Shown piece after piece: positions 13,577 to 48,600 of a stretch of DNA of 64,000 nucleotides. The notes under the pieces are model-generated. The model was not told the DNA's origin and searched no databases. It saw only the letters and a program-made list of their open reading frames with translations. Made by a program: the position numbers and the translations under genes. This stretch comes from Brachionus plicatilis (lineage: Eukaryota; Rotifera; Eurotatoria; Ploima; Brachionidae). The number at the start of each line of letters is the position of its first letter. Positions within the stretch are counted from its first letter, which is position 1. The stretch lies in the NCBI GenBank assembly GCA_010279815.1, contig QEOQ01000519.1, positions 254,171-318,170 of the forward strand. The letters run 5' to 3'.

Positions 13577-13584
13577 TATAAATA
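13577..13584 (+). promoter_or_regulatory. TATA box of the SH2 gene
   Basis: TATAAATA lies 52 bp before the start codon, so transcription would begin near 13608-13612 and leave a 5' UTR of about 25 bases. The spacing is right for a core promoter, which supports the single-exon model. Confidence 0.65.
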
Positions 13585-13635
13585 CTTAGTCAAACTTCCG
13601 GACAGAAACATAATCCAGTTCAATTCCAGAACAAA

Positions 13636-16521: not shown

Positions 16522-19500
16522 ATGGAATCTGATCCACGATATCAGTGGTTAGAGAAACGAATAGCTTCTTGTTTAAATCCTAAACGAGAAGCTCTAGTTA
16601 ATTTCATTGAAAATGAAGACAACAAGTATCTATTTAATTAATTCCAATTTATAAATCTTAATCAACTTTATTCTAAAAGACTTATTGTTATGGAATTTTT
16701 AAACAATGAAGATGTCAAGCAACTCTACATTTATGCCAAGTCTCCGACGCATCTGATCGCTTCTCGTGCTTGCACCACTGAGAAAAGTTCAGACAAGGGA
16801 ATTTTTTTTCTAAAAATTTCCAATACTTCAAAACTTACTCCGGAAACCATGAGTAAACTTCTTCTCTAAAAATTAATTTCATTTTTTACAACCTGATCAT
16901 ATCAGATAACCAAGTGACTTATTTTGAGTCATCGAACAGAATTTTGGAGCACATGGACCTAATGACTCGTGAAGTGTTCATGCCACTTTTATGTGTTGAG
17001 GACAATAGTGACAAACTAATGGACTTAATGCATCGAATTATGTCCCAAGTGGCTGTAGCTCAGTCTCATATCGAAGACTCGGTCTCACTTCCACTTCCAG
17101 CTCTAAATGTTTTAGCATTAGCAGCCACAAATCCCAATAGGCGTCTATCAGTGCTTCACATTCTAGAAACCACTCTGATTAATTGGCAAAAATTGATCAA
17201 ATCAACCCTTAAACAGCAACCAGACATTTCAAATTCGAATTCAAATTTTTATACCAAAGACGAAATTAAGCTTTGGACTTCTTGCATTAATAAACTTAAT
17301 AATTTATTAGTTCAATTAGACGCACCTCATGTCAAAGACATTCTGATCAATTTGGAAAATAATAACAGTGCTTATTTACAGCCATTTAATTCTATTAAGT
17401 CTGAAATTAAATTAGCCATAAAATCGGCTGAAGTAAATCTAAGATACATTAGCACTTTAACTCCGTGGGTGCACAAGATCAAAATTGCCAATTTAGTTGA
17501 CGAGTCACAGTATCTTTTTACTGGACTTTTTCATACTTTACTTTTAATTTGGCAAAATTCAAAATATTACCACATGAAAGAAAGATTTGCGCATATGCTT
17601 TCATTTTTGTCAAACGAAATTGTCTATGTTTCCAAGAATGTGGTCGGAAACAATATTTTAGATGATCCATTGAGAGTAAAATTAATTTTTTTCTTAAAAA
17701 ATGATTTTAATAATAATTTTAAATAAACAAATTTTTTAAATAATTAATTTTTTTATAAAGTCATATGCTAAGCTGAAAGAAGCATTGAGAATATGTGCCA
17801 TGTTTAGAGGAACTTATCTAGATTTCAAAGAAAAGGCCGATGCATTAAACTCTAAATTTCACAAGCTGGAAAAAAAGTAGCTGAAAATTAACTTTTTGAA
17901 TTGTATTTTCAATTTAAAATTTTTTTAAGAATTGATTTTAACGAAAAAGACATTTGGTGGGTTCAGTTTTACTCGGCTAATCGCCAAAGTATGAACGACG
18001 ACGATGACTATGAAGTAATGAGGGAACACAGTCCATGGCCGAGAAGAAATCATCCTTGTTTTTACTATCTAAATGTGTTCATGGAAAGATGCAATGATGT
18101 GCTTGAATTGGTACAGACTATGAGACACTTTCAAATTTTGTCCAAAACAGTTTCTATCGGAGGCTCTGATAACATTAACATGGACTTTTTGGCTCAAGAA
18201 ATTCATGCTAAATATCAAAGAGCAATCAACGAATTTCAAAATAATGTTAAAGATGTCATGAATTTCGATAATCAAGAACAAAATTTTGAAGTGTCATTTT
18301 TTAACTTAAGAACAACAATAAAAGTAATTTATTATATTTTTTAAAAATAGATTTTTTTTAAATTTAATTAATAAAGGAATTGGAAAGGGAATTATCTAAA
18401 ATTTTAGATCTAAGCATTAAACACTGTACCACTATTGGTTCCAAACTTAGACTTTTAGAAGTGTTTGAAGGAGTACATGAAAGAGATGTCATTCAAGTAT
18501 GGTTTAATTATATCATAAAAAAACTTAAAATTTTAATTTTTTAAAAATTGAGAAAATTTTGAAGGAATCTAAAAAAAAGGGTTTATTTTAAAAATTTAAA
18601 AACAATACTATTAGTCACAATATTAATTTATAATTAAATGTAACATGGAATATTTTTAAATTTCTAGTAAGGAAAAAATTATTAAAGAAAAAATAAAAAC
18701 ACAGTTGGTCGTAATTCAAAGTCTGACCTAAGCATGAGTAAAAATATTCCTATAATTTTTTCAAAAATCATTTTTTATTAAGGCCTGACATTTTCATGTT
18801 ATTTTAAAGAGTTAATGTTAAAACGTCGTTTTTTCTGATTAAAAGTCAATTTAATGTATTATTCTTAAATTAAAAGTATTAGTTCTCACAAAATTCAATT
18901 AAATGTCTTTTGATCTATTGCACAGAGTCAAGTTAAAAAAAATATCACCAATTTATAAATAAATATTTTCAGTTAAAAAAATTAAAGAAATTAATTAAAC
19001 AAATAATTTTAAAGATAAAAAATAAAAAAATTTATACTTTTAATTTTACTTTTAATTTTTACAAATTTTTTTGATTCTTTTTTTGTAAGCTTACTCCTCT
19101 AAAATTTCCTAAATGAATGTCGCATGCATCAACTAACATCGAATAATTTATTTCTATAAGACTATTCACCTTTTGAACCGAAAGCAATTTCTAGAATGAT
19201 TCTTGTACATTATTAAAAGGAAATTGATAAAATCTTTTTATGAAATTTAATTTTTTCATAAAACAATTAATTAAATTTATTCTGGTTAATTATTCTTGAA
19301 GAAAATAATTAGTTAAAAGTTATATCTAGTCTAGTTAAGTCTAGTTATATCTAGTTATAGTTAGTCATTTTTTCTATTGACCTTTAATCAAAATAAATGA
19401 CTTTTTAATAAGCGTCCTTTTAAAAATTAGCTTAAATAAATTTTAATTTAAAATTAATATTACTAAAAATTTTTAATTTGTCTTCAACAGCACAAAAGAT

Positions 19501-22500
19501 TTAAAACTAACAGTTAAAAAAATTTTTTAAAGCTTCAAGGAATAGTTTTAGAAAAATTCAAATATTTAATTTTTAAGATCTATTATGAAAATTAAATTAA
19601 AAAAAATTAATTTTATCACAAAAAATTAGACTCATCTGTCATCTGAGTATGTCTGGTTAATGAACGAGATGCTTAAAGAGTTTAGCAATGTAAAACAATT
19701 GGCGAATAGCACTGAAGAAGTCCAATCCGTAATGCCCAATATTGTCAACAAGTGTTTCTGGTATCATGGCCTGGAACAGCGAATTAGAGTACCAATGGAA
19801 AAATTCAGTCATTTGTATCCGAATTTATTGCAAGGTGATCTTGGTTACAATTTAAGAGAAACTTACAAAAACACACTTGATATGATCGAAAAGTTTGTGT
19901 TAATACAATTTTTCATTATCTGATCTAATCAATTTTTAATTTTAGAAGTAAAAATGAGACTTTTAAAAAATGGGAATTATCTATTACAGAGTCTTTGACT
20001 GATAAACTACAACAAACAGTTTTGAAAAATTCCTCTCTTGATGAACTACTGGCCAAGAGACCAAGCTCAATAGAAGTCAATTTTGATTTTGATTTGGAAA
20101 AATTTCTCAAGGAAATTCACTATTTAGAAATGCCACCGTTTAATTTGGACCTTACTGATGTTCTAAAAGACAAATTTAGTCAATTAAATGATGAAAACAA
20201 GCTGAGACTATACGCAACTAGAATGCATTCAATTGCTGATAAATACAATTTAATCATGAAGAACATTCAAAACGAAGAACAACCTCTGTTTGAATTTCGT
20301 CTAGCCAAAATTGATAGTGTAAATTTTTCTAAAAAAATTTCAAAATTTAATTTAAAATAAAATTTCATTTTTTTAGATTGTCGAACAAGGGATTCTAAAT
20401 GTTACATGGAATACCGTAGAAATACCTGATTATATCGAAAATGCTCATTCGGTAATATGTACCGATGTTTACCAAAATTTGGAACTTTGTCAATCAAATT
20501 CAAAGGAAATTTACACAATAGTAAATGATTGGTGTGATTTTAAGTCAGATGTTTTTATGCAAAGAGACCTTAGCTTGAGCCAGGGGGCCAAAGAGCTTGA
20601 AGAAAAACAAATGTAGTTTTAAACACTTTTTTTAAAAAAAAAAACTTTTCTATTTGTATTAGGGAATTACACAACACTTTCAAAAAAGAAATAACAAGAG
20701 GCGGAAATAAGATTCATTTGTTGATTTCTTCGACCTTAGAGGCTGTTGGGATCAGCGAGGCATCGCCGGGCTGGCAAGAATATTTAAATTATATGAATGA
20801 AATAATTTTCAGCGGATTCAGAATATCCTCTTTGTCAAGTTTAAAAAATATGCTCAATTCAATGACTGATTCCGAAGTAAAATTAAATTTTTTGAAAATT
20901 ATTTTTGTTTAAGTTTCAATTTTTAAAGGAATTAAAGACTCCATTTGTTTGTATCAACCTTGAGCTCATCGACTCTAAATTGTTGTTCAATCCTCCATTA
21001 GATGAAAACAGCCATGTTAAAAATTTACAAGAAATTTTATTTGATTTTATAAATACGTTTATTTCACGTGGTAGTTACATGCAAGTTTTGGGAAAAAATA
21101 GAGTATAATTCTATTAAAAAATTTATTAAATTATTTAAATATTAAAAAAAAAATCTAGAATAATTATGATCAATTGGTGGCTCGCGATGAAGCTATCTAT
21201 GAAATGGTAAACAAAATAAATTCTTCGATTGAAAAAGCATGTAGTGACTGCAAGAAAATATTTGACTACTTTAATGGATTTAGTTTTTTGTGGACAGCGG
21301 ATATTCACGAAACATTTGTTAACTTTTTAAAAGGAATTGCTTCATTATCTAGATCGAAAAATCCACGACCACCGTCTAAAAATTTTATGAGCAATAGAAA
21401 TGTGGCAAAGTAATTTTAATTTAAAAATAAAATAAAAATTCTAAACATTTTTTTCAAGGAGTATTGCTTCGCTCGGAAGTGTTCTTACTCCAGAAGCAAT
21501 AGCAAATATAGAGCGAACATTTTTGTCTCCTTACTACCAAAGTATGTCTAAACAAGAAAAAGAAAACACGTCCACTCCACTATTAGAAGACTTTAATACT
21601 GAAATAGCAGTTTATGTGGTATAAATTTGAATTTAAATTAAAATTAAATTTTTGAAATTTTTTAACAAGAATGCTCAAGAAAAAATCAAAGTTTTACAAA
21701 GCTACCAAGATGTAGATTGGATAAGAGTCAAACTTCAGCCTACTATCGATGTTTTGATTACAATTACCAATAAACTTATTTGGAAATTTACTAGTTTTTT
21801 ATCTGACCAAGTAATTAATTGATTAATTTTTTAAATTAATTGTAACAAGAATCATCAATTTAAAAAAATATTAAAATTTTTTATTAATTTGAAAAAAAAA
21901 ATCTTGAATTCTCAATCTAATTGAATTTTTAAAGATAAAAACAACACTGAATGAGCTGGACCAATTCTTGAAAAGAATGGAGCCCGATATTGAAAAAATT
22001 ACAGGCGAAGAAAGAGATACTGCCACATTTATGAAAATCATGCGAATGTTCAATGAAGTTTCGTCCAAACAGCAGGAAATGGAAGTTAAATTTGAACTAA
22101 TGAAGCGAACATTGAACTTGCTTAAAAAGTACAAACGATTGGATGTCGTAGATTTGGAGGCCAAATTCAACAGTACCCCGGTCAGATGGACCAATTTAAA
22201 ATCCAAAGTTACTTTGGCAAAACAAAGACTTGGACCCACAATTCAAGAAGAATCAAAAATTATCATTGAAGTAATTTTTAAATTAAATTTTGTATATTTT
22301 TCTAATTTAAAATTTTCAGGATTTAAAAAAATTTTCAACAGTGATTAAAAATTTGTTAAATGATATACTGAGCTCGTATGTGTTTGACAGGGGATGCGAA
22401 TATGAGCGAGCATTTAAATTAATAGACTCATTTAATGAAAAATATGACAGTCTACAAAACCAAGCCGAAGATTTAAAGCAACTCCAGGAACTTCTTGAAT

Positions 22501-24621
22501 CCGATGTGGTAGATTTTGGAATTTTAATTCAATCAAAAGCAACTCTAATAATTCTAAAACAAACTTGGAAAACAATCAAGTTAGAATTTAAAAAAAATAA
22601 AATAATTAAATTTATTAAAAAATAAATTATTTCAGAGACATACGTTGCCGTCACAATGAATGGAAATCAATTAGATGGCAAAAAGTTAACATAAAATTGG
22701 CACAAGAGGAAACTGACAGACAATTAGAAATGCTCGAAAACTTGCCAGTGGAGGCTCATGTCTGGGACGCTTTTACTGGAACTGTAGCTGATATCAATAA
22801 CATAAAAGTGATCTTGTTTTTTTAATTTTTATATCTATGATTAAATTTTTTAAAATTTTAATTTTTAGAATTGCTTACCTATTATTGAAGAGATAGCTAA
22901 TCCGGCGATGAGAACAAGACATTGGAAGCAACTGATACGTATTTCAGGAGGAACTAATTTAGTCGATAATGAGACTTTGAAAATGCTCACATTTGGTCAA
23001 TTATTGGATTTAAATTTGCATGGCCATGTCGAAGAGGTTAAATATATTGTCCAAAAGGCTGTCAAAGATTTGAGTATCGAGCAAACTATTAAAACTTATG
23101 AAGAAATATGGTTGAGCAAAGTATTTAGTTTAAAAATTTATGTGTATCCGAGATCGGAATCATCAGATAAAATTTTAAATGAAGAAGATGTATTTTTGTA
23201 TTTTAATTGTTTAATTTAGTCTAAATTTTAATATTAAGGATAAATCATCTCATGACCGCAGATCATCACAATCTCGTATTGGAATGTTTCCTACAATGTC
23301 GACCAAAAGCACAAAACGTCTCAGTATTGGTTCATTACCACAATCTTTGATAGGAGTCGAACCTTTATCTGTAAAAAAATTTTTTTTGTTTCATTTTTTA
23401 AATTTTAATTGAAGGAAAACGATCCAGTTTATCTGTTTGAAAATGCAGAGCAACTTTTTGCCGAATTAGAACATCATCAAATAGTGCTTGAGGAGCTATT
23501 GCAAAATCAATCAGCAGGCTCCTTTTACGATGAAATAATTAAATGGCAGAATACATTGCAAAATATCGAAGCTATTTTGTATGAATGGAACAAGGTTCAG
23601 CTTAAATGGAAACGCCTGGAACCAGTAAATTGAGAATTTTATTCAAGATATTTTTATAAATAAAATTTTAGATTTATTCATCATACGAGATTCACACAAT
23701 CTTGCCACAAGATTCAACCAATTTTTACAAAACTGACAAAGACTTTAGAACACTGATGAAAGCCACACACAGAAATCCAAACATTCTTAAATGTTGTCAA
23801 CGAAAAAGTGAGTAAAATCATTCTTTAGCTGAATTTACTAAAAAAATAAACATTTAAAATAAAAAAATTTTTTTAGATATTCTAAATATTTTGAAGCATT
23901 TGCATCAGAACTTAGAAACATGCTATGAATCTTTGATCTGTGAAATGTCAAAAAAGCGATCTAAATGTCCCAGACTGTATTTATTGACTGACGAAGACAT
24001 GCTTGAAGTGTTGTGTTGTGGTTCGAATTTGGAGAGTTTGTCTGAGAATATTTGTCGAGTATTCAACGAGATAAAGGCAGTGGAAATAAGCGAAGTGGCA
24101 GGTGGAGAAAAAAAGATCACTGGTTGCTTTGGAAGAAATGATGAATTTTTTCAATTTAAAAATGTATTAATTAATTTTTACAAAAATCTGAAATATTTAC
24201 ACTACATGCATTTTTTTTAATTTCCATAGCCTGTTCCATTTAAAGGCGGAATCGAAGAATTTATCAATACAATTGAAAGTGCGGTACCAGAATCTCTAAA
24301 ATTTTTACTAGAACTTTCCCTCAACGGTAATCCGCCTCCATTTAACACAAATTCTGCAAAAAATGATCCAAAAGCTTCAGAAACTAAACTGCAATGTATT
24401 TTTTTAATGAAATCCATAATTTTTTAAATATTTAAATACATAATAGCTCAAAATCGGGCTCTTCCTTCGATCAATGAGACAAATGAGTTACCTTCAAGTC
24501 AATCGGTATTTTCCTGGTTATTCCAGCATACAGGGCAAATAATTGAACTAAGCTTGAGAATTTTAATAACTAATCAAATTGAACAATGTTTAAAAGAATC
24601 TAAAATTGAGGATCTTAAAGT
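16522..24621 (+). other. Dynein tail (DHC_N1/N2 region)
   Basis: About 24 exons encode the helical tail. Recognisable blocks are RILEHMDLMTREVFMPLL (about 16935), the helix-rich segment at 21936-22270 (EKITGEERDTATFMKIMRMF), and the linker-side blocks NPAMRTRHWKQLIRISGG (about 22890) and KAVKDLSIEQTIKTYEEIW (about 23060), which equal the conserved RERHW and KE-T...W motifs of all heavy chains. A 44-residue Ser/Arg-rich exon at about 23240-23369 (SSHDRRSSQSRIGMFPTMS) looks like an extra disordered insert between the linker blocks. Confidence 0.8.
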
Positions 24622-27600
24622 TGGTTAAATATTTTTAAAATTTAAAAAATTTTTTACAATTTTCCATTAAGAAATTAGAGACTAAATTTTTAGACTTGAT
24701 TGAATTTTATAACAAACAGCTAAATTCTTATCAATTCAGGAACAACTCAGGTGAATCAAATGAGCAGAACGAAGAAAAAATGGATGATAAATCAGCTATT
24801 ATTATGAGCTCAGAACAGAATGAAAAATTTAATTTAGTTATTAAAATTTTTATTTATTACAAAAATTTAATAACAGAGATAATAACTAAAAATCTGAATA
24901 TAGACTCAGTTCAGTGGTTAGAAACGCCAAAATTTTATTTTGTCAAAGACACTGACACTAAAGTTACAATTAAAATTCTTAATTTTGAAATTAATTATGG
25001 TTTTCAGTACTATTCCTTTCACAATGACGATGAATGTTCATTGATCTATCAATCTAAACAGGTTGAAGTAATTTTAACACATTTGGTAAACATAATTCAA
25101 TCAAAATCAAGCTCCCTTTTACACGGAAAAAAAGTGATATCAAATTAATTTTTTTTTAAAAACTTTAAATGTTTTTTTTTTCAGAATAAAAGTCTTCTTA
25201 GATGTTTGAGTCAATTTTTAGGTTATGAAAATCATTTTTATTTATGTTCAGAGTACACGACTAATGATTCACTTAATAATATTTGTAAAGCCATGGTTAT
25301 ATCAGGTTATTGGATAACATTCATGAATTTAAACAATTTGTCTGTCCAACTGATGAGCGCATTGTCGAATGTCCTGACACAGGTAAATGAGCGAAAAGAC
25401 TCAATAGTTATAAACAATGATCCTTATACAACATCGGTGGTCTTAAAAAATGGAACTTTCACCTATTTTGCTACCATTGAGCCGTTCAACTATTCCAGTA
25501 TTAATTCTCATATTGATTCGATGCGAATCATCAAAATTGACCATTACTTCAATCTTATTTCAAAAGATTTGTTCGAAAAATTCCGACTGATTAAATCGGA
25601 TTTTGAAAATTTAAATAACTATCTTAACTTAAATCTTATGTCAAATGGATTCTCTCAGAGTGATCTGCTGTCAAGTGAAATATTGCGAATAGTCAAGATT
25701 TATAACAGCATGCTACAGTCCAATGCCAAAAAAAGCTGTAATTTTTTTTGTTTAAAGCCAAATTTTAATTAAAATAATTTTTTTAAGATCAAAACTTTTC
25801 GCTTCTTGATCCACACTTGCTTTCTTTTTTGATCAGAGAAGCTAGCTATTTGATTAACACTAAAGCATTAAAAAATGATGAAAATGATTCTCAACTATCT
25901 TCAAATAAAGGTATTTTCATGATTTTTACAGGTTTTAATTCAATGCAAAATAGTTTGGTAATATTTTTGATATTTTGCTAAAGCTCTGGTCAATCATTAG
26001 TTATCTATTATAGCTTTTTTATATTTTAAATTAATGCATTGATTTAATTAAGGTATTTTTTTAAGCAGAGCAAGAATCTATTGTTCAAGTGTTAAGCAAC
26101 TATATTCTTCCACGGTTAGACAAAAACAGTGGTAGAATGCTGTTCAATTATTTCAGATCAGTTTGGCCAGAAATTAAAATCGCCTACAGGAATGAATTTT
26201 TGCTCGAAAATGGTAAGTTTTTTCTTTTATTGCTTTTAATGCCAATATTTATAAAGTATTAAATGCTGATTAATCATTTAATCTAAATTAATGTTATAAT
26301 AATTTATTTAAAAACTTTTACAAAATAAAAAAATTAATTTTTCAATAATTATTGCATTTTATCTGTTTGACTCTGTTATTATTTATTATTATATATCTGT
26401 TGGACTCTTTTTAAAATTTAGTGTTTTATTTTATGTGGATTTATTGGAAACTTTTAAAAACTTTGAATTAATTATAATGAGATATTTTTAAAAATTTATG
26501 TATGGTTTTACCGAGCATATATAAAAATATATATTTTTAAAAATATCCGCAATATCTTAATTTAATAAATAAGATGCAATTAATTTTCTATGGCTTTTCT
26601 TTAATCGATTAGAATTTTTAATTATTCACTAAAAATGTTCAAAATTTTAAAATCTTATTATAAATTTTTATTTAAAGATTTATGAGAAATAGAAAAGGAT
26701 ACTGATTCTAGACATTATTTTAAATAAAGCAATTTTCTGACATTTTTTTGCGTTTTCTTTTAAAAAAAGCATCACAAATTTCCAAATACTTGCATAAAAT
26801 AAAATGTAAAAATCTAAAATTGATTTAATATTAATTGATTTATTAAAAAGTTTATAACTTAAACTTTTTTTGAAAGAATTAACAGAAATAAAAGCATTTT
26901 TTCTAAGCAAGAAAAGGAATATATAAAAACGGCATTTAAAAAAATTATCCAAACAAATAAAACGCGAATACTTAACGAAGTATTCTTAATTTTTTCCTTA
27001 AAAAGTATGAACAACATTTCAAAAAATTAATATTAATTGAAAACGTGTAATAAAGAAATTCTTTAAAAAAATCATATTAGATACACAATGCAACATGGAT
27101 GGATAATTGGGTTTTTTTGAATTAGAATTAGATGATTAAGAAAGTCTTTCTTCAACTTTTTTTCAAAATTTTTAAATTTAAATTTTTTAATTTTTTATTT
27201 AACTTTTAATTATAAATATTTTTTTTAAGGAATAAATTTTTTAAATTTGCCAATATTTTTCGAAAAAGAAACAGCCATGCAGATTGAGGATAAAATAAAG
27301 TTGAACAACATACCAGATGCGGTTGTTCTAGCCACCAATAAACTAAAACTGGCACCGTCAGTTTTATTTCAAACCAAAGTTGTTTGTATAGTAGAAAATC
27401 TTTTCACTTTTAAAAACGTACTCTTTAATTTAATTTTTTTTTTCTTTTTAATTTAAATATGATAAAAGCTTTTGTTGATTGGGAAAAGTGGCATTGGAAA
27501 AACATCCTTGTTAAAGACAGCGATCGCCGCCTTCGCTGAGCTAGGCTATGGGTTTGATTATCAACATGTATTTATCAATAGCTATTCAAATGTTGATCTT

Positions 27601-30600
27601 TTTGGACATTCGGCTTCAAAATCGGGGTAACAAAATTATAAATTATTATTTTTAGTATTTATTTATTTTTAATATTTAAGATCGCTCAGAGAAGGTCTCA
27701 TACCAAATACACTGAGAAATTTTGAAAAAAACTCCGACTTCAATCTTTTACATGTAGTCGGAGAGGTAATTTTCAAGAGTAAAATTTTCAAATTTTCAAT
27801 ATTTTTTTCTTAGAATTCAACAGATAACTTTTATCTTTTCGAGTCATTATTTAACAATGAACATGTATTTTTGAATCAAAATAGTGAAAAAACTGAATTA
27901 AATTTAAACAAACTAAAACTTGTTTGGGAAGTAAGATATTTATAAAATATTTTTTTGTTGATTTAAAAGCTAATTTAATCTAAAAGTCTGACGATCTATC
28001 AAATTTAAGTCCGAGTGTAATTTCCACCTCGAATCTTTTATTTTTAAACGAAAATATGATCACATGGGAACATTTAATTGAGTCTACATTTCAATCAATG
28101 GCTTATGGATCCCAGTCTAGCTTGTCTAAGCTTAAAATTGAACTCATAAGTCAATTAAGGCTTGTAAAATCAGAAATTGCTTTAAATTCCAATTTTTACT
28201 CGGATGTGTTACCAGTTACATTCGAATCCAAAGTGAGACTAGTCCTTTCTATTCTCAAGGTAATCAAGATTAAAATAAGAAAATTTTTTGTTTATAAAAA
28301 TTAATTTTTAGAGCATGATAAAGAACAATGATCGTTGGGATGAAATCGATATAGCTGGAATCAGCCAGTATTGTATTGCTAGTGGAATAACAGCAGCGAT
28401 GACTCAAGAAGGCAGAGAAGCTTTTGATTCATGGTCTAAATCAAATTTGAATAAGTATCCCAACGAAGGACCAGTAATTTGAATTTTTAATTATATCTTC
28501 AAGTAACTTATTTTGAAAAAAAAGATTTATGAATACTTTTATGACATTGATTCACATCAATTTCAACTATGGTCTGAAAATATACCCACCTTTAGTTGTC
28601 CAGTGCATCAAGGCATACCATTAAACATATTTGTTCATACATCAAGCACTATGTTTTTAAGCTCAATGCTTGATATAATGATGAACTTGGATGAATCTTT
28701 TATGATTGTGGGAGAAGCTGGTACTGGAAAGACATCCTTAATTTCGGACAAACTCAAAACATCATGCTCCGGTGATTTGACAGAACTTTTTTACATCACA
28801 ATTAATTCAAATCGATTGACAAACAGTGCATATTTACAGAAAAGAATAAACCACCATTTGTCATGGGTGCACAGTTCGTACTACGTTCCAAAGGGTAATA
28901 AGCGAATGTACTGTTTTATTGATGACATACATCAAGCAGAAGTAAATGAGTATAATAGACAAACAGCTGTGGAATTTTTGCGTCAACATTTAGACACTCA
29001 AAGGATCTACGATTTTGCTAACAAGAAATGGCAAAAAACTAAAAATATTACTTACATTAGTACATTTAATACCCGAGTTTACTCACCTTCAAATTCTGTA
29101 TCGAACAAAGTTCTTAAGCACTTCCATGTTGTTGCACAACATTTTCCAAAGTAAAATTTAAAAAAATTTTAGCTAATTTACCTTTGATTTTTGTCGTTCT
29201 GAAATAATGTCATTTAATTATGACCGTCTTAAATTTTCTTAAACAAAAATACTAAATTAAATTTAGTGTTTTTAACATCAATAATGAAATTTTAATAATA
29301 ATATTAATATTAAGATGCATATTTTTTTTTTAATATAAATAATTTATGTTTACTTCATGATTAAAAGACTGATTAACTAAAATTATTTTTTTTGATTTCT
29401 GATATGAGTTTAATTTTTATAAGGGAAGTGGATGAAAAATAAGTTTTAAAATATTTTTTAATTTAATTATTGATGGAAATGTTTTTGTGTCACTATTTTT
29501 GTGTCACTATTTTTGTTTTGTTAATTGCGAGGAACGAGCGTGTGCTGTGACGAGCTTATTAACCAGACACGAGAATACTGAATCGATTTGAACCGGTCAA
29601 CAGCGATTGGATCGATTCTTTAAACCAATTAATTCTAAAAAATTGATTTATTGATTGAATTAATTGGATACTGAAAAGATGAATTTTTAATTAGCTATTT
29701 ATTTAATTTTTATTGGCAAAGAGAAAAAGGTCAAAAAAATTATGCATTCTTTAACATTAATCTTCGATTTTTACTTGTGTTTCAAAAATAAGAATAAGGG
29801 TTGCAAGTGGATTCTTAACCGGATTCTTAATTTTTAGAAACCGTGACCGTGTTTTCATTGACCAGTCAACATTTTAATGGGTGGTCAACTGTTCGGTAAC
29901 CTTAGTGGTCTAAATTTTGGACCGTAATAGAATACAGTCAGGAAAAAAGGGGCAGGAAAAAATGCGGTCCACTTTTTGGCGAAAATTTAAATAAAAATCA
30001 TTATTTTTGTTAAAAAATTTATTTTAGGATTTTTTAAGAGAATATTTCTATTAATCAGCTAATTTTTTTTACCAGCAAATAAAAAAAACGAGTCTTGCTT
30101 CTTATGTTTTCCTTTCCCAGGCGGGTCACATAATATGTGACCAAGTGACTTATGTCGAATATATGATAAGGCATTTTTTTACCTGGTCACATACTATGTG
30201 ACCCCGCCTGGTCACATATCCAGCAGGATCCAAAAAAACATGCTTTTTTTGCAGCTATATCATTTTTTAAAATCTATTTTTTTTGAAGCTATTTTTTTTG
30301 TTTACAGAAAAAAAATTCTTTATTTATGTTTTTAATCTATTGGTAAACAATTTGTTTGTAAAATCACTTGGCAGAGATTTAGCCTACTGGACAACCATAT
30401 AATATGATTATAGAAGAAGTTTTTTAGCCGGTACAAGTACAACTACTTTTAAGCCGATCATTTTTATCGATTTAAATTCTAGTAATTAATTCTAAAGCTG
30501 TTTTTTAAATTAAATAAAAAATTAGCTTTTTTGAAATTAAAAGTAAATTAAATTTTGAACGAGAACTCTAAAACAAATTTATAATTTTTATGTTAGAATG

Positions 30601-33600
30601 TGGAGATTTTAATTATCTAAAAAACGGTGTGTCCTAAGTGTCAATTCTTTAAATTGAAGAATTTTACCAAAAAAAATATATTTTTAGTTTTTCAGCTTTT
30701 AAAAATAAGAGCTAGATGACTTTTTCTTTTTTTGACATAATGCTAAGGTAATTCTCTTAAACCATCCGACCGCGTTCCGTGTTTTAGTAAAAAACAGGTG
30801 TTTTAGCATAAGACTTTGGCTCGATACAATAAACAAAAAAAAAATAAAATTTGTCATTTGCACAACTAATCTTTACGGATATTTTTTTTTTTTTTTTATT
30901 GTTTATTTAAATTTGAAATGGCTCTGAGTAATAAAACTCCTTCAGCCATTAGATAAGTAAAAAAATTACAATTTTAAAATGAATCAAGAAAACATAAAAA
31001 GAATTTTTTTTTTGAAAAATAAAGTACAAAAAAAAATGAAATAGTAAATTACTGGAAAAACGATAGCAAGTTTTTTTTTTTTTTTTTACAATTTTCAATG
31101 AAAGATTGAAAATCAGAGAGATAAACCCTTATCATTTAACCATTCACTGAATTCATTCCATATATTACATAAAGGTGTTTTTTTCTTACAGGGTCTTGAG
31201 CTGTTAACAAAGGCACTGACATATTCTTTGATTAAATCAATAGTAAGTGAATTTTTGAAGATAATTAATTATCTTCAAAAAATCTTTACGGATAACATAT
31301 TTTGATCTTAAAAATGTCTGCAAAATACAGTTCTGATTTGATGCTTGGGATTTTGGTAATTTTAAGTAATTTTTCGAAATTTAACCTTTTCTTACATAAT
31401 TTTTCAAAAAATTACGCTAAATTACCAAAAACCCTAGTATAAAATCAGCACTTTATTTTAGAATAGTTAATATCTTTCTTTTAAATATTTTAATAATTGT
31501 CTAAGCAATTTATTCTAAAATTCGAATATTATGGAACAGTTATAAGATCTTTTTTGAGTCACTTAATGTTGTGTCAGCTAAAAATTTCAAATAAAAGTCT
31601 TTAAATATTTAAGTCATTGATTAATAATTTTCAGTCATTAGTTGTGTCAGACTTTTTCAGATTATTTTGCTGAATTTGGACAAATCTGGTTTTTACTTAT
31701 TATTCAAATCTTGAAGATCATCAAACTTTTACTTAAAATTAAAGCTTGATTTTTCTTTAATTTGAAAAAAAATTCATTCACACAAGGTATTGATTTCACA
31801 GTATACTTCTAGACATACAAAAACTGAAACTAGTTTCTTTCTAAGTTGATATTAAAAAATACTGCTATGTTAGATTTGTCAATTAAATTTTTTAGTTCTC
31901 TAAATTGGTAAACTTTGGAACAAAACTTGAAAAATATTTTAAATATTCAGAATAAAGTTTAAACAAGGTATCTTTATATATAAAAATTAAAAAAATTCAT
32001 AGATCTAATCAAAAATTAAACAGGGGCAAATTTTCAATGCAAATCCTATATTCCTCTTTCTGATAAAAATTAATTTTGCAATTAAAAAGAAAAATTATCT
32101 GAAGAAAGAAATATAGGCAATTCCTGAATACCTTTTGAGAAAATATTTAAAACAATTTCATGAAAAAAAAAGATAAAAATGGCATTTCGAAATTTTCGGC
32201 CGGACTAATGACCGTTGACCAAAAAGTAGACGGTATTTTTGACAATCTTTATCATACGGGTTTTCAAAACTACGGTCAAAAAAAGACCACAAAAACCTCT
32301 CGCCAAATGCACCTGTTAGCTCTGACCACAATCACAACTATTAAATAACGTCCCGTTACTCGCATATTTAAAGCTCTGCTTCATCTAGTATAGTAAATAA
32401 ATGAAGAGTAAAAAAATGTAAATTAAGAAAAAACTTATCTTCATAAGAAAAGAGCAAATTAATTAATTGTGAATATTTTGTTATTTTGACATTTATCTAT
32501 TTGAATAAATATTTTGGACAGAAAATTGAGAAAAATTCACGAATCAATTTAAAATATAAAATATGAAATTTTCTCAATCTTAGAATTGCTAAAATTAAGC
32601 AAAAATTTAATTGAGTTAATTTTAATTTTTGCATTTAAAATAATTAAACTAAGCTAGATTGATTTATTATAATGATAACATATAAGAAAAAATCAAATAG
32701 ATAGAATATAAGAAATTAAAAAGTTATATGAGATTATTTTAAACTTAAAATACAAAATTTTAAAAATAATTAGATAATGTTGTTTAAATAAATTTATTTT
32801 CAAAAATAAATAGTTTTGGTATAAAACTACCTTGATTTAGTGTTTAATTTTATTCTAATAGTTTTTCTTACTAAAATTATCAATTTATTACTCAACTAAA
32901 ATCATTTCTTTTTTTTTTAGCAATGCCCAAATACATGGAATTTACACCAAGTTATTGTACAGACACTTAATTGGTGATGTCGAGAACGAATCCAGCAATG
33001 CTAAGGTAATTCAAATTTTTTAATCAAATGTGATCCTAACTGATTTTTGGCATCCTACTCGAAAATGAGAATATATTATCACAGCGATTAGTTCTTTAGC
33101 ATTTTTTTTTATTTGATAAAAATGTCTTTTTTAATTTAAATAGTTCCGCTTAAATTGTAATTTTCAGGTTCGATGATTAATATTCTTTTGCTTAATCCCT
33201 TGATAAAAAATTACTAAATGTCGAAAAATCTTAAGAAATCCAATTCAATATAATTGTTAATTTTATTTTATTAGAAAACAAAACATTTTACAATAAAGTA
33301 AATTTATTTATTTTTTTATCTAGAGAAGGTAGAATCACTATTAACTAATTTAAAGCTCAATTATACTCGATAACTTTTAAAAGGATTTATTAAAAAAAAA
33401 TATTATTCTTGATTCCTCTAAAACGTTATTGAAGCTTACATCCCTGGAATGTATTAGAACCTAATTTTTTAAACTTTTAAGGTAAATGCAGCAATTGTTG
33501 GGCGACTGAAGAGTCTTCAAACAGTGTTAAAAAATATAATTCAGTCATCGATCGATTTGAACTACAAGATGCGTTCACTTTATCTCGAAAAATCAGAAAG

Positions 33601-36600
33601 ACTACACTATATTTTCACACTGCGAGCATTGACATCTCTTTTCAGACACATGTGTGTCTCATTAACACCTGAATGTAGCAAAAAGCAAATATTGCTTCTC
33701 TGGCACCATGAATGTGACTGGTTATATGGACAACGAATGATAGATACAGTTGATGTTGAAAGATACCAACTGGCTTACAAAACTGTAATCAAAATGAATT
33801 TTACTGACCAGCATGAATTGGCCCTGTTGAATCGCCAAGTCTATTACTCGAATCTGAAGGAAACTGAGAGTGGTATAGTCATGGCTGGACTTAATACTGC
33901 CCATAGTTCGCACTATGCTTCGAATATTTTTGTTGATGGATACGAACCAACAGATGACATAATTCAGATAAGAAATTTGATTCAAATAGCTGTAAATGAG
34001 TACAACAAAGAAAACCAGCGTATATCAATACCTTTGTATGAATCAACAGTCATGTTGATATCAAGATTATGCCATACTACACAGTGTGTTGCCGGAAATT
34101 GTTGCATTGTAGCTGACGGTGGAATATCTCCTTTTATTCTGCAATTAGTCGCCTCTCTAATGCAATATAGTTTGGTTCAATTTAAAGCTAGTCAGTTTAT
34201 GTACAGCAAAGATGCTTTTTTCCAGCAACTCAAGACCAGGCTTATTTCATCATATTACAAAGCCGGAATAAGAGTAAAAAAAATTCAAATTTTTTATTTT
34301 TATTTCTAACATTTTTGGGCTAAAGGGCGAAAAGGTAATGCTATGTTTGACAGAGGAAGAAATGGATCAGAAAGAATTTTTGGCTTATATCACTGAATTT
34401 TTGATTTCTGAAGAAGTCATGCATTTATTTACAATTGAAGAAGAGACCACAATTCTTAATTCCATACGAACTCAGGTCGTTCAATCTGGTCTAGTGTACA
34501 CCAGAGAGACTGCATGGGAATTTTTCGTTAAGTAACTAAATGCCAGTATTTTAATTCAATGATTTTAACATTTTATTCTCATCATAGAAATATTCGGGAA
34601 AATACTCGAATTGTAATTGTATTGAATGAAAATGCAAAAAAATTCCAAAACCTAGGCCTTGAAAACCCTTCTTTATTTAACAATATGGAACTGATATGGA
34701 TTCAGCATTGGAGTTTAAAGCAATTAGTTGATAATGCTCTATATCACTTCAAAGGTAACCAAATTAAGAAAAAAAATCACCAAATACTTCAATAATTAAA
34801 TTAATGAGAGAAAATATTAAATAAAATTTATTTTAAATCATTAAAAAATAAAACTTAAAAACTGTAAAATTATTAAAAAAATTATTCTAAGATATCAAAT
34901 GGCTTGACTCTTCAACACGAGAAAATTTAGCTCACTTGTTGGCTTCAATGCATAATTCAATTCGAGAAAATGATACAACTGCATCGGCTCACCTAAACAA
35001 CTTAACTTATACAAAATTTGTTGAAAAGTAAAGAATATTTTTTCTTGGGATCAAAACAAATTACACATTAATTTTTTTCATTAGATTCAAAGATTTATTA
35101 ATCAATAAATACAATGAAATCGAGCACTCGCACAAAAATGTGTGTAGACTTCTCGAAAACATTCAAAAGCAGCATAGTACAGCTAAGAAATTACTGGTTC
35201 AGTTGCAGCAGGAAAACATGGTACTCGAGGAAAGAATAAATGTAAAATTAATTTTTATCTACAAAAAAATAAATAAATAATTTTTTTTAAAAGAGCACTA
35301 ATAAAATGCTGCAACAAATCGGTCAAGACATGACAATGACCGAACAGCAGCTCAAAGTTCATAACATGCAAACCAAAAAGACAGTTCAATTAAAAAGAGT
35401 TGATAAAATTTATACAAATAAATTTTCAACCAACTAAATATTTTTTTCCAGATTCTTCCTGAATACCAATCAGCTCATGAACGAAATGTTTACAAAACTG
35501 TGGCAATTGTGGCCAATACAAAAAAACTTATTCAAAATATAAATATGAATAGTCTCCAAGAACTGAGAAGCATCCAGAAACCTGACAGTAAAATGGAAGA
35601 TATTCTAGCAGCAGTTATTATGATCCGTAAATAAAAACTAATTTTATTTAATTTGTTTATCTGTGCTAAAAGGGTTAGTTGTAAAACCTACACTGATCAG
35701 GAATGTGAAAATCTAAAAAAATTATCATCACATTTCAAATGAAAAAAAAAATATATAAAACATTTTTGATATTTTTGAAAAAAGCATAAAAATATAGATT
35801 ATGTAGTTTTTATAAATTTAATAATATTATTTTGTCATAAAAATTGGAAAAAAACTTTAAAGCATTGCAACAACACATCCAGATTTTTTTTGGCAATTTT
35901 CGTTTTTTTTCCCCACTAAACAAAAAGCTTGTTAATTTTTAATGAACAATAATAATAATTATAAAGCTACGGCAAGCAAACTTGCAGAGGCGGCCTACTA
36001 GGAGATCGCCTTTGGTAGCGCATTGCGTAATACAAGGAAAATTACAGAAGTAGAAAAACTTTTAAGTTTTTAGAGTCAATAGACATTATTTACAGTACAA
36101 ATGTAAAAAAGAAATTAGAAGGAACTAAGAGTGGTATGCAGTAAAAAATTGTTTGTAAAATTAAAATTATTATGTGGTAAAAACTTGGTGGCCGGTCATG
36201 AAGACATCGTATCGTTTACTCTAATTTCTGTTTTTATCATAAAATAAAAAAGGGTAATAGTATTGCATTCCAAGCAAATTTTTTAAATTTGTTACGTAAA
36301 TTAAGAAAAATGATCTTTTCGTTCTATATGAAATCAGAAATATAGATTTAAAAAGAATAAATCGCCAAAAAATTATTCCTATTGTAGATTATTGACCCTG
36401 AGAAATAAAAGACATAAGTTTTTTCTAAAGCAATGAGAAAAATTAAAGGATTTTTTACATTTTATTGATTAAGTGTAATATTTTTTTATCTGAAATTTAT
36501 TAAGACTGACTTTTGTATTTTTGTTATTATCTTTTATTATTTCAAAAAGAACGAACAAATAACTTCTGAAAATTGGAATATGAAAAATAAAATTTGTATC

Positions 36601-39600
36601 ATTTTTGTCACTTATAAATTTAATTTAAAAACTAATAAAAAATTAAAAAATTTGACGATTTATTTTCACGGTAAAATTTTATTAGGATTAGGAGGCTTAT
36701 AAAGGAATTTTGTTTTGTGGAAAAAAAATGAAGCCAAGTGTCAAAAAAATTGGGTGTGTTGTCGCAAAGCCATTTTCGATCATTATGGCAAAATAATTTT
36801 ATTTTATTTATATGTGGTTATAAGTTTTTTTAGATGAAAAAGAATGTACAGTAAAATTCAGGTAATTAGAAATAATTTTTTGATTTACACCTAGTATCGT
36901 TTTTCCACAATCCTGATGGGTGTTTGTTTTACAGATAACCAATTCTTTCCGATTAAAAAGAAGAAAAAATAATTAAAATAGGGTAAAGAAATTAATTAAA
37001 ATATATAAATTGAAATAAGTAATAACAAAAGTTACATGTTTTTAAGTATTGATAATTTAAGCTTAAATTTGAATTTAAATGATTTTTTAGTAAAAAGTCC
37101 AACTGCTGATGTCACATGGCAAAAGGGTGCCAAGCGTCAAATGGCCAATTTAGATCGATTTCTTGAAGAGCTTCAGTCTTTTGACGAAAGAGAAATAAGC
37201 GAAAACACAATTAAACTTTTAGAAGATTTGATCAAAAAAATAGACTCAAATGATTCAAAAGACGAGTCAAACCGTGCTGGTTTGCACTTGGAAGCGTTGA
37301 GAACACTGAACCAATGGATCAAAGGTGTTCTTCGCTACCATATACTAATGATAAAGCATGTGAAGCCCTTGCACAAAAAGGTCGAAGAAATAGAAAAAGA
37401 AGTCAAAGAAGCTGATCAAAAATTGACCACTTTGAACCGCAAGAGCGAAGCCTTGAACGCTCGTCTCAAAGACTTGGCACAAAACTTTGAAGAAGCTACG
37501 GTCGATAAAGAAGAACAAGAGGAAAAGGTGATTAAAATGAAAAATCAGCTTCAAACTGCATCCGAACTGAACATGATTTTGGCAAAAGAATTCGATCGTA
37601 ACATGCAAATATACGAGTCTTTACAAGAGAGGATATTTTGCTTGCCAGGCGCCAGTGCTTTAGCGTCAGGTTTTCTTATATATCTTGGTCCATATCAATT
37701 TCAATTCAGGAGATTGATGCTTACTTCAGTGTGGGTCAAATGTTTGAGTGACCGTGGCTTACCGTTGGTAATTGATTCATTGAATTTGATCAAAGGAAGA
37801 ATTGTTAGATGGCAGATGGAAAGTCTTTCTCATTTGCTACCGTTTTCTGCTGAAGTTTCCATTCCAGGTGAGGAGTGGAAAGTTCACTTTGCTTCAGATC
37901 AACTTACCAATGAACCATTTATAGGTAAATAGAATATTTTTTTAAAAATTAGTTTGATTATTGTTTTCTCTGAAAGTTCCAAGCACTGAGATGAATGAGG
38001 AAAATAAACGAGAAGAAGAGAGTCAAGATGAAAACGAGGAAAAAATGAATGATGATGTCGAAGAGCTAAATGAAAATGCGAACAAAGCAATTAAGATTAA
38101 TGTGAAAAATGAAGAAATACTTAATGTTGAAAGTGAAATGTTGGAGACGGATGCTAAAACCCATAATGAAGAAGAGTCAGTCATTAAAATCGAAAATAAT
38201 GCAATTACTACCATATCTAGAATTTCGGTAATTACTCTTTGGATATTTTTTTTACAAAATGAAAAATTGAATCCTTGAAAATAGAATCATTTTTAGTATC
38301 AAAAAAAGATTTTAAATATTTAAAATAATATTTTTAGATAAAATTTCGCCTTAAACCAATTTTTGCATATTTTTAAGAAATTTCAGGATATTTTGAATTA
38401 TTTGGTTCTGCTAAATGTGTTGATTGATAATTTTTTCAATTAAACCACTTATAATAAAAAAATACTCGAATTTTCTCTATTGATAATATTGGACTTGATA
38501 CTTCTTGTCATTAAAAATCAAGAATATGTCAATGGATCATTTTTTCATGTAATTCAAAGGAAAAGCGATTGAAGGTCTCTGTTATTTTTTAATATATATA
38601 AGTTTATTTTAAATATTTAGTTATTAAAAACTTTTTAAACACTAAATTTTTAAATTTAAAATGTATTTTAGAGAATAAATTATAAATATTCATCCGGAAG
38701 GTTTTTTACCCATTTTAACTTAAAACTTATTTAAAATTTACGAAATTTTTTCATTGATAATTGTTAAATATCTATTAGTTAAAACTTAAAGTTTAATAGA
38801 AAAATTAAAAAGAACCATAAATCTATACTGTTAAAATGTAGGGTCTATAGTCATAGGTGGCCAGTTTGTCACATATTATGTGACCAGTACCCCTCACCTA
38901 AAATATGTTACCAAGACTAGTCACCTAATTTTCAAAGATGGAATATGTGACCAGAAATTGATCACCTATTTTTTCTTTTGGTCACTTTTTTCTTTGTTTA
39001 GTTACCTATTTTGATGAGTTATATGTTCACAATCATTTTACGTGGAATAAGAAAAGGCTAGGAATGTTGAATTTTTTTAATTTTTTCACTATAAAATCAA
39101 TTAAAAATTTTGGAAAAGAAGTAGATTTCTTCATTTTTTTGGCCGTTAAATTTTTTTTGGAAATATTTTACAGAAAGTTACATTTTTTAATCTAAGTTTA
39201 CGTTATTTTACGTAAAATTTCATATCTTTCCTGACTAAAATTGACGTAAAACACGTATAGCTGATTCCGGACCTTTTAAATATATGTATTTATTTAGTGG
39301 TGGAAGTGTCTTACTTTTGTGAAAGATGACAAGGATAAATCTTGCTAATCTTTCTGCATTTCTTAAGGAGCTGTTAATTAATTCATACTTCCAAAAAAAT
39401 AACATTTAAATTTATTTTGAGTTTTAATTTAAAAAAAAAAACCTTATTTTAAAATTATGAAGTATTTTAATTTATTAAAAAATAAATTTTATAGCATAAT
39501 GAAATTGGCGATTACTATGTCACCGCTTCAAGTTATAGACAATTTGTAATTGCTCTAATACAATACGTGATTGGGGAAGATCAATGCATTAAGTGGATGT

Positions 39601-45600: not shown

Positions 45601-48600
45601 CTATCAAACAATTCGATACTAATGATCTTGAAAAATTACCACAGCATCTTATCAAAAATGTTTATTCAAATTACATCGATGATGAAATGGACAGAAATTA
45701 TGTTTTTGACTTACTAAAATTGCTCATTAATTCTGCGAAATCAGAAAATATATCTCTAAATGGAGTAAAAATACCAATGCCAGATCCCACCATTTCAATA
45801 AATGAATATCCCAATTGGTTGGAAGAAAAAATTCCTGATCGAAAAATTGATTCCAAAGTGCTGCAATTGCATAATGAACTAGTCAAATTTTACAACACCA
45901 TAAGAGCGGAAAATTTTATCGAAAATTTGGAGCAACTGTGGGAGACTAACTCGAGTAATGTGCCAAAATTAAATGAAGAGCTTGATCAAGATTGGCTTTA
46001 TTATTCTATTAAATTGTGCAATGAAAAACTTCCGCCTTTGTTGCCGAAATTAGATAAATCGGAACTTAAATTTGATCCCAGCAATTCTGTTGCTTTTGCA
46101 ATATTTAAAGTAACTTTAAAAAAATTTACAGTAATGATTTGAAACGTAAATTTTCTTAAGTTAACGTAAATCTACGTAAAATCCACGTGTCAAATCAGTA
46201 CTGTATCTTTATTTGTATTATTTATTTATTTTTTTATTAAAGGAATATAACATTTTTAATGAACAAATGAAATTTATTAATTCAGATTTGAAAAATATTG
46301 AAAAATATCTGCTACTTAATACTCAATTGTTTCCAAAAGAGTGGAAGAATATAGCATTGTCGCTTCAGTCTCAACGAGTGCCGGAAAAATGGGAACATGA
46401 ATCGACAAGACCAAGTGTAAGACCATTGAAGTCTTGGATAGCTCGTAAGTAAAAATATCAAAAAAATTTAATCTTTTATTTTAAAATTCGTTAATTATTT
46501 TAAAGTCTTTTCGATTATTTTAAAAAAGGCAATAAACATAGATTGCAAAATTAGGATTTTTTTCTTTAGATTTGTCACAATTAAATCACTATTTAAGATT
46601 TCTTTAATAAACTCTTAAGTTATATTCGCTGTTGATTCCAAATGATTAATAATTAAAGGTTTAATTAATTATTTTAAATTATTAAATAAATTTTTTAACT
46701 ACAATACAAGTGATATTTCTTACAAGTAAATTTAATTCAATGATTAGATACACCAAAAGCAAATCTAATATTACCTTATTTAAAAAAAATCTGAAAAGGG
46801 GTATTTTGATCTAATTATGTCTTTGTAAATTGTGATCTAATTGATTATTAATTAAAAATTTGATTTAAAATAAATCAATCAATTTTTGACTTTTTTTTTT
46901 CTATATAATAATAAATATGTAAGAATGAAAGAGCTTAAATTTATTCTTGAATATTTTATTTGAAATTAATTAAAGCATTTATGACAAAAATAAAATTTGT
47001 TAAATATTTAGTTTAAGATAAGTGGTTCTATGGTGTAACGGTTAGCACTCTGGACTTTGAATCCAGCGATCCGAGTTCAAATCTCGGTAGAACCTTTCAA
47101 TTTTTTTAAAAATAATTAAATCAAATAGTCACAAAACTTTCGATTTGCTTCAATAGTTTTTGTCCTATATTTTTTACCAATTTTTTTATCCATAAAATAT
47201 TTTCTTATTTCAAAATTTATTTAAATTCAATTGTAGGTTCTATGGTGTAACGGTTAGCACTCTGGACTTTGAATCCAGCGATCCGAGTTCAAATCTCGGT
47301 AGAACCTTTCAATTTTTTATCATTTTTCTTAGATTAAAAAATATTGATAAATAAAAAAAAAATAAATTTGACTGAACTTCAGAAGGTTTTGTTCTAATTT
47401 TGGGTTCAAAAAAATTATAAAATTATTCTGTTTTCATATCAGATTCGTCATCACTCTTGTGCTCATATTTGATAAAATAATTTATCAAAATATTTTTATT
47501 AGTTTTAGAAACTAATTTAAAAAGATCATATTTATATTATTGTGAATTTCGGATTGTCAATAAAATATTAATTATATTGATAAATAAAGTAAAATAAATT
47601 TTTTAATAGCAAGGTTCTATGGTGTAACGGTTAGCACTCTGGACTTTGAATCCAGCGATCCGAGTTCAAATCTCGGTAGAACCTTTCGAATTTTTTTAAA
47701 AATAATTAAATCAAATGGTCACCAAACTTTCGATTTGCTTCAATAGATTTTATCCAAAATTATTAATATTAATTCTTTCATTTTTAAAATATTTTCTTAT
47801 TTCAAAATTTATTTGAATTCAATTGAAGGTTCTATGGTGTAACGTTTAGCAGTCTGAACTTTGAATCTAACATTAATACTAAAATTTTGAATTTTAGAAC
47901 AGAATATTCGGTACAATCAATTAAAAAAATTGTCATTAGACAATTTTTCTCAAGTATCGAAAATCAATGCTTCAATTTTAAAACAGCCAAATAATTTATT
48001 TACCTCAATTATTATTCAAAAGTGTTTCAAAGAAAATCTAAGTTTAACTGATGTAATTTAATTGAATTATAAAGATCATTTAATCAATAAAAACTATTAT
48101 TTGATTTTTTTTGAAGGTCGAGTTGAATTTTGTAGTAAAAGATGACAGAAAACTAAATTCAAATGCTGATGGAATATTTTTAAATGACATTAAGATAATA
48201 GGTGGCAATTGGGATGCATCCGAAAAGTGTATCACTAAATCAGAGTAATTTCGAATTTTCATTAAAATAAAAATTTAATAATAAAAATTAATTTAAACAG
48301 AAACCTTGTGAACAAACTTCCCCCACTTTTTGTATTTGCCAACAAGATAAATCAAGATTCAAATAAAGTTGATAATGAAATTAGCGCTTATTCTACAAAC
48401 CTGAGACAAAATTTTGTTGCCAAATTTAAAATACCAAATAACTGCACCGAATCAGTGCCCTATTTGGCCTTTGATTGCGAAAATGATGAGGAAAATTCAA
48501 GGAGATTGTATAGGCCAGTTTTGTCAAACATTATTTCGAATCATATCCAATCTTCGATTAATATGCAAGATGATCAATCTCCCAACTTATCGGTGGCTGG

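Follow-up and report, generated by a model that had tools for sequence, protein, structure and literature searches.

A beta-related dynein heavy chain of the rotifer Brachionus plicatilis with a degenerate AAA1 ATPase site and its relatives in other animals

A dynein heavy chain gene and its surroundings

The window, i.e., the whole stretch of 64,000 nucleotides analysed here (G000:C24:254171-318170), is an AT-rich part of the 103-Mb genome of B. plicatilis, which is assembled in 173 contigs. Its main feature is a dynein heavy chain gene of 32.3 kb (16522-48778, + strand), whose 58 exons encode 5077 aa from ATG to stop (Table 1). The exon model contains no internal stop and all of its 57 introns are GT-AG; their median length is 56 bases and 44 of them do not exceed 90 bases. 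This agrees with the first-pass annotation of this DNA, which had described open frames and splice sites kept over about 32 kb.

The exon model was obtained by a dynamic programme, which combines a codon model with a fixed splice matrix, and by hand curation. The exons added or moved by hand are that of the AAA2 P-loop, which has a weak acceptor, those at the 24163/24230 border, the first two, which were picked by eye, and the last three. Splice matrices retrained on the output of the programme led to 232 introns and a broken model, and were dropped. The same is true for the short predicted exons 44588-44656 and 45065-45128, located inside repeats, and for a few other exon predictions lying in long introns (e.g., 36074-36133 and 30414-31907). 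Since the model was selected to avoid stops, its open frame alone is weak evidence. Independent support is given by the order of the Pfam domains, by the alignment with a protein of B. calyciflorus and by N-termini like those of the relatives. Thus, 10 of 18 ORFs scanned in the gene score above cut-off for dynein families, in the right order (DHC_N1, DHC_N2, AAA_6, AAA_7, AAA lid, MT and Dynein_C), seven have no match and one matches AAA_9 below the cut-off (23.9 vs 27.4 bits). The annotated B. calyciflorus protein P0001 shares 80.2% identity with the model (3181 of 3966 aligned residues, 41 gap positions), over an alignment that covers model residue 1101 to the last residue. Both ends of the protein resemble those of its relatives, the N-terminus encoded by the first two exons being like that of relatives down to a sponge.

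The product displays the hallmarks of the dynein heavy chain superfamily (tail, linker, AAA ring modules, stalk and MTBD between AAA4 and AAA5, C-terminal domain), and matches to solved structures also place it there. The best match of the tail is an outer-arm beta chain (7kzm_B); among its ten matches, five outer-arm beta chains come first, followed by two trypanosomatid chains (described only as "putative"), and DNAH9 ranks ninth. By these matches, the gene has the beta-type N-terminal tail of the DNAH9/11/17 class. The best solved-structure matches of the motor part are DNAH17 and DNAH9.

Table 1. Features of the dynein heavy chain gene (positions in the window)
Feature	Position	Strand	Basis
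N-terminal tail (DHC_N1), outer-arm beta type	16522..20318	+	Pfam DHC_N1 in three ORFs; 7kzm_B, 2.7e-66
Linker (DHC_N2)	22869..24163	+	Pfam DHC_N2, 71 and 59 bits
AAA1 Walker A position, LLHGKK / NKSL, no P-loop	25116..25196	+	Direct reading; split by a 51-base intron
Rest of AAA1 large domain	25185..25737	+	Pfam AAA_6, 33.9 bits; predicted AAA+ core of the orthologue
AAA1 Walker B position, ITFMNLNNL, Asp-Glu absent	25314..25340	+	Sequence reading, family census
AAA1 sensor I position, ATIEPFNYSS	25470..25499	+	Sequence reading
AAA2 P-loop GKSGIGKTS, intact	27481..27507	+	Gene model, comparison with relatives
AAA3 P-loop GEAGTGKTS, intact	28711..28737	+	Pfam, gene model
AAA3 Walker B CFIDDIHQ, Asp-Asp intact	28912..28935	+	Gene model, census
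AAA4 P-loop position GNCCIVADGG, degenerate	34094..34123	+	Gene model, census
Stalk CC1 and first part of MTBD	35085..35626	+	CC1 of ordinary length (127 residues), family-conserved
Remaining MTBD with family signature KSPTADVTWQKGAKRQMANLDRF, CC2, start of AAA5	37091..37924	+	Pfam MT, 63.9 bits
AAA5 acidic insert	37977..38227	+	Gene model
C-terminal domain and C-terminal extension common with B. calyciflorus	46243..48778	+	Dynein_C, 34.1 bits

Besides the dynein gene, an ORF (1404-2558, 384 aa) is, as judged by eye, similar to retrotransposon reverse transcriptases. An ORF encoding an SH2 domain (13582-14181, 57 bits) is located just upstream of the dynein gene, and a single ORF of 1633 aa (52802-57703) that encodes a URGCP-like GTPase domain (88.5 bits) is found downstream. 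Towards the 3' end of the dynein gene, its final introns carry several copies of a repeat (44588-44656, 45065-45128, 47017-47106, 47196-47351 and 47588-47743) that translates as FYGVTVSTLDFESSDPSSNL(GRT) and looks like a short interspersed repeat.

The AAA1 site in the window and in related proteins

ATP hydrolysis at AAA1 is regarded as the defining activity of dynein. In the window, the exon that ends at 25133 finishes on LLHGKK, and the exon that follows the GT-AG intron begins at 25185 with NKSLLRCL; the CSE anchoring this position downstream lies at 25245-25253. The first-pass annotation had reported that the Walker A, Walker B and sensor I motifs of AAA1 are lost, and direct reading at 25100-25500 confirms it. 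An alternative exon supplying intact motifs is very unlikely because the 51-base intron has no room for it and because the separately annotated B. calyciflorus protein carries the same type of sequence, SSSLLHGKKNLNILKC, at the P-loop position. The match of the exon that follows this position to AAA_6 is weak but above the cut-off of 25.2 bits; the ten best other places of the same genome score 352-534 bits. A structure prediction of AAA1, which the annotation had proposed as a check, was made with AlphaFold for part of the B. calyciflorus orthologue, together with nine relatives. It yields an AAA+ core of medium confidence (mean pLDDT 67.5, with 132 of 236 residues in the 70-90 range; averages of 49-62 in the four remaining models), and all the 50 matches listed by a structure search with this model are dyneins.

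Thirteen other dynein loci were compared in the same genome. A pattern search finds GPAGTGKTET and CFDEFNRI in 10 of them (L001-L008, L012 and L013), the frame of L012 having a stop after the P-loop; these ten include an ordinary beta chain with an intact AAA1, on C18 (L005). L011 has no match to the pattern, whereas L009 and L010 are divergent. L009 (G000:C5:904500-930320) has an intact P-loop, CGKPNSGKTQ, with FDEL at Walker B; it is near none of the dynein classes compared and is possibly DNHD1-like. The dynein of contig C117 (L010 and L016; G000:C117:225602-225760) has a degenerate AAA1 P-loop, ALIGPESSGKRQTL, which has lost the Ser/Thr. Its best match is DNAH14, and it does not belong to the family of the window gene. 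When the AAA3 exon is searched against its own genome, the only full match is the window itself and the next best is the ordinary beta chain (37% identity).

Looking for relatives with window residues 1420-4454 (words from AAA1 to stalk) gave 91 proteins. Those that belong to the same family come from rotifers (P0001 and P0004-P0006, with which P0002 and P0003 group), sea urchin, pearl oyster, tunicates, frogs and gar; ordinary dyneins appear from 296 bits downward and the family member P0030 at 246 bits. A search with a Xenopus member, for which 120 of 205 matches were listed, adds amphibians, lungfish, sturgeon, starfish, crinoids, gastropods, bivalves, the annelid Owenia and amphioxus. Among these matches listed, the last family row scores 1023 bits and the next, a DNAH17, 422 bits; where family members bear a name, it is most often that of a dynein beta chain, DNAH9-like or uncharacterised. 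P0030 was examined as a possible DNHD1; a search from this divergent protein (23 matches) led instead to a family member from the sponge Amphimedon (P0203, 44% identity). No family member from amniotes, teleosts, cnidarians or arthropods is found among the matches listed for the three queries, in which the word prefilter, the length limits and the partial listing may hide very divergent orthologues (the sponge member is absent from the Xenopus listing). Another unusual dynein was seen in the ant Cardiocondyla obscurior: P0072, named "dynein heavy chain 7" (inner-arm), keeps the AAA1 P-loop and has FENFDKL for FDEFNRI at Walker B.

The motif census includes 54 family sequences (the window and 53 others), which are far from independent, 24 of them being amphibian. 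AAA1 can be read in 50; in P0014, P0016 and P0113 this region is incomplete, and P0092 is interrupted by a retroelement-like insert. This long insert, in the AAA1 of the gene model from Rhinophrynus dorsalis, is probably an annotation fusion. The sequences were compared with 42 ordinary dyneins of several classes, hand-picked from the matches. The AAA1 Walker A motif GxxxxGK[S/T] is present in none of the 50 readable members vs 41 of the 42 ordinary dyneins, and the counts for the Asp-Glu of Walker B are identical (0/50 vs 41/42). The pair of intact AAA1 motifs that would mark an active motor is therefore found in no readable member, window included. In the same way, the AAA4 motif is absent from all 54 sequences but present in 40 of 41 ordinary dyneins. 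The AAA2 Walker A is kept in 52 of 54 (vs 41/42) and that of AAA3 in 53 of 54 (vs 32/42); most members also keep the Asp-Asp of the AAA3 Walker B. AAA2 is not uniformly kept, since both sponge-type members lack its P-loop and the window lacks the Asp of its Walker B (HVVGE).

The AAA1 loss is therefore common to sponge, rotifer, mollusc, annelid, echinoderm, amphioxus, tunicate and vertebrate members, and relatives with the same losses, for which the first-pass annotation had suggested a search, do exist, starting with the 80% identical B. calyciflorus protein. The degree of decay varies. The Gly-Lys of the P-loop is also lost in rotifers and sponges, while 28 of the 50 members retain GxxxxGK and have lost the following Ser/Thr, so that weak binding of nucleotide at AAA1 is possible in these 28.

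Domain conservation and phylogeny of the family

Identities by domain were calculated for seven family, five DNAH5 and six DNAH10 sequences, chosen from the matches. DNAH5 and DNAH10 were adopted as controls because the beta-chain set mixed paralogues and truncated models. An earlier result, a tail twice as conserved as in beta chains, came from that set and was dropped; with the new controls, the conservation of the tail is about equal (mean identity of 52.9% in the family vs 56.2% in DNAH5 and 51.1% in DNAH10). In both controls, AAA1 is the most conserved part or nearly so and the tail is the least conserved. The mean identity of AAA1 is 40.6% in the family vs 91.3% in DNAH5 and 88.2% in DNAH10, and its lid falls to 30% in the family. 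Conservation is low in AAA6 and the C-terminal domain as well (36 and 38% vs 70-77%). The differences are smaller for the linker (59% vs 75-77%), AAA3 (58% vs 79-80%) and the MTBD (62.3% vs 71.6% in DNAH5 and 76.2% in DNAH10). The whole motor ring is thus relaxed, to the greatest degree in AAA1 and its lid, and the tail is unaffected.

In the stalk, CC1 spans 127 residues between the alignment anchors in all 13 family members compared and in 12 of 13 ordinary dyneins. The two conserved Trp of the MTBD are separated by 62-66 residues in the family vs 59-61 in the others. Furthermore, the MTBD signature KSPxxD[LV][TS]WxKGAKR is found in 50 of the 54 members, including the sponge, and is absent from all the 169 other proteins compared. 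CC1 shares only 14% identity with that of beta chains, so stalk coupling may differ.

Phylogenetic trees were built on AAA2 to AAA6, AAA1 being excluded. The family is monophyletic and its sister group is the outer-arm beta clade, with FastTree supports of 1.0 for both its monophyly and the sister relation (67 taxa) and UFBoot values of 99 and 100 (34 taxa). It lies outside, not inside, the DNAH9/11/17 beta clade, a position to which a long-branch caution applies. Nesting with the animal beta chains is rejected (log likelihood difference of 172, AU p near 0) in a test that compares two trees under a single model, one of them obtained by a fast constrained search. However, the stem of the family is long (0.83-0.85) and the trees rely on a single substitution matrix; the family may thus have arisen from beta chains more recently, long-branch attraction accounting for its position. 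Within the family, sponges are the first branch, and the trees recover rotifers, vertebrates, echinoderms and molluscs as separate groups. The placement of rotifers, outside the other bilaterians, departs from the accepted animal phylogeny, and so does that of amphioxus, which joins echinoderms and lophotrochozoans; both may be due to long branches.

Proposed role and relation to described dyneins

Apo dynein grips microtubules tightly and is released by ATP at AAA1, which is described as the principal hydrolysis site of the studied dyneins, AAA2-4 being regulatory (PMC7215579). In Chlamydomonas, beta and gamma chains without motor domains are reported to assemble arms (PMC12338079). Joined to the pattern of constraint, this suggests that the window protein could be a docked, non-stroking crosslinker or brake. 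As the AAA1 ATPase is lost, no ordinary power stroke is expected. The beta-type tail would dock the heavy chain in an axonemal arm or an arm-like complex, and the stalk would hold a neighbouring microtubule. Because AAA1 cannot bind ATP normally, the head would remain near the apo, linker-straight and strongly microtubule-bound state. AAA3 is the retained candidate site for releasing a bound head, and its ATP, with a structural nucleotide at AAA2, may tune the grip. The protein would thus work beside the active dyneins of cilia and flagella, crosslinking, braking or spacing in a fixed or slowly gated manner. It should be emphasized that, given the poor conservation of AAA6, of the C-terminal domain and of the AAA1 lid, the ring could differ from a normal head in folding and signalling, and that the rigor-like state is a guess.

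The losses could also be those of a decaying pseudogene, or an artefact of gene model or assembly, as they affect the most conserved region of dynein in a family with a long stem. This explanation is extremely improbable, since the frame is open across 58 exons and separately annotated proteins from rotifers and many other animals share the losses while their other domains are conserved. The uneven conservation between the window and B. calyciflorus (94% identity for stalk and MTBD, 61% for the AAA1 lid) also argues against a pseudogene. The protein is almost certainly conserved and AAA1-dead, and the first-pass proposal of a retained heavy chain related to outer-arm beta chains is borne out, its tail, linker, stalk and MTBD being conserved and its losses common to its relatives. 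The other parts of that proposal, a non-motile protein possibly paired with an active heavy chain in the outer arm, are putative. The head could be a passive remnant on a tail that serves only for assembly or cargo, as the identity of the tail equals that of DNAH5 and DNAH10, AAA1, AAA6 and the C-terminal domain are relaxed, and motor-less beta chains assemble in Chlamydomonas (PMC12338079). However, a passive head would need neither the MTBD and AAA3 (62 and 58% identity) with its almost constant Walker A, nor the MTBD signature and the unchanged length of the stalk, which makes this reading unlikely. The conserved AAA3 would also suit an unusual but working motor driven by AAA3 (or AAA2) in place of AAA1, the Asp-Asp Walker B being present in most members; given the principal role of AAA1 and the regulatory one of AAA2-4 in the dyneins studied (PMC7215579), such a motor is quite improbable.

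The main rival concerns the identity of the family. DNHD1, the nearest described oddity, is presented as an orphan, divergent dynein-like gene of unclear standing (PMC8754002), and is reported from human and zebrafish (PMC9916431, PMC9749982). The family could be the DNHD1 group, an orphan or "ghost" human dynein, and hence partly known, the window gene being its invertebrate form. The matches listed for the family include no mammal or teleost, and this complementary pattern fits the fast divergence of one orthologue. Furthermore, zebrafish dnhd1 morphants are described as having fewer and shorter cilia whose motion is not impaired (PMC9749982), as the loss of a structural dynein might give. 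However, no row named DNHD1 occurs among the matches listed for the three queries (91 of 91, 120 of 205 and 23 of 23), in which names are abridged and many rows nameless. The fall in score that follows the last family row of the Xenopus search and the names given to members, mostly those of beta chains, also speak against it. The identity with DNHD1 is rather unlikely, but is kept as the main rival because of the complementary occurrence and because a fast-evolving orthologue could be missed. The first-pass statement that no such family has been described holds for the titles and abstract openings of the open-access papers listed, where no description of an AAA1-dead dynein family was found; it has to be qualified by the orphan DNHD1, which was already known.

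Among described systems, the outer-arm beta chains (DNAH9, DNAH11 and DNAH17; the ODA beta chains of Chlamydomonas and Tetrahymena) share the domain order and the tail type of the family and form its sister clade. However, those compared keep the AAA1 and AAA4 motifs lost in the family, which has its own MTBD signature. The Chlamydomonas oda4-s7 strain resembles the window protein in that a beta-type tail assembles without a working head, but it is described as a mutant devoid of the motor domain (PMC12338079), whereas the window protein keeps head, stalk and MTBD with a dead AAA1.

Returning to the crosslinker, the window gene probably belongs to an old animal family of beta-related dyneins that have lost the AAA1 ATPase and would act as fixed or gated crosslinkers. 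For the crosslinker role taken by itself, the comparisons lean slightly in favour, while a placement in the outer arm is tentative. The family as a whole could well be an unnamed one, which would predate the split between sponges and other animals and comprise beta-type, non-stroking crosslinkers gated by AAA3 in cilia or flagella, a proposal that falls just short of an even chance. It appears to be kept in many aquatic and amphibious lineages and lost in amniotes and teleosts; such a loss would explain why standard models missed it.

These genes call for caution in annotation, being filed as "dynein beta chain, flagellar outer arm". They are natural material for an open question, the role left to the beta head, to AAA3 and to the stalk when there is no AAA1 stroke, in animals where this can be tested such as frog, sea urchin and rotifer. 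If the proposal is true, an ancient AAA1-less family that keeps its tail, its stalk and its microtubule-binding tip would mean that selection can favour a dynein for a structural role.
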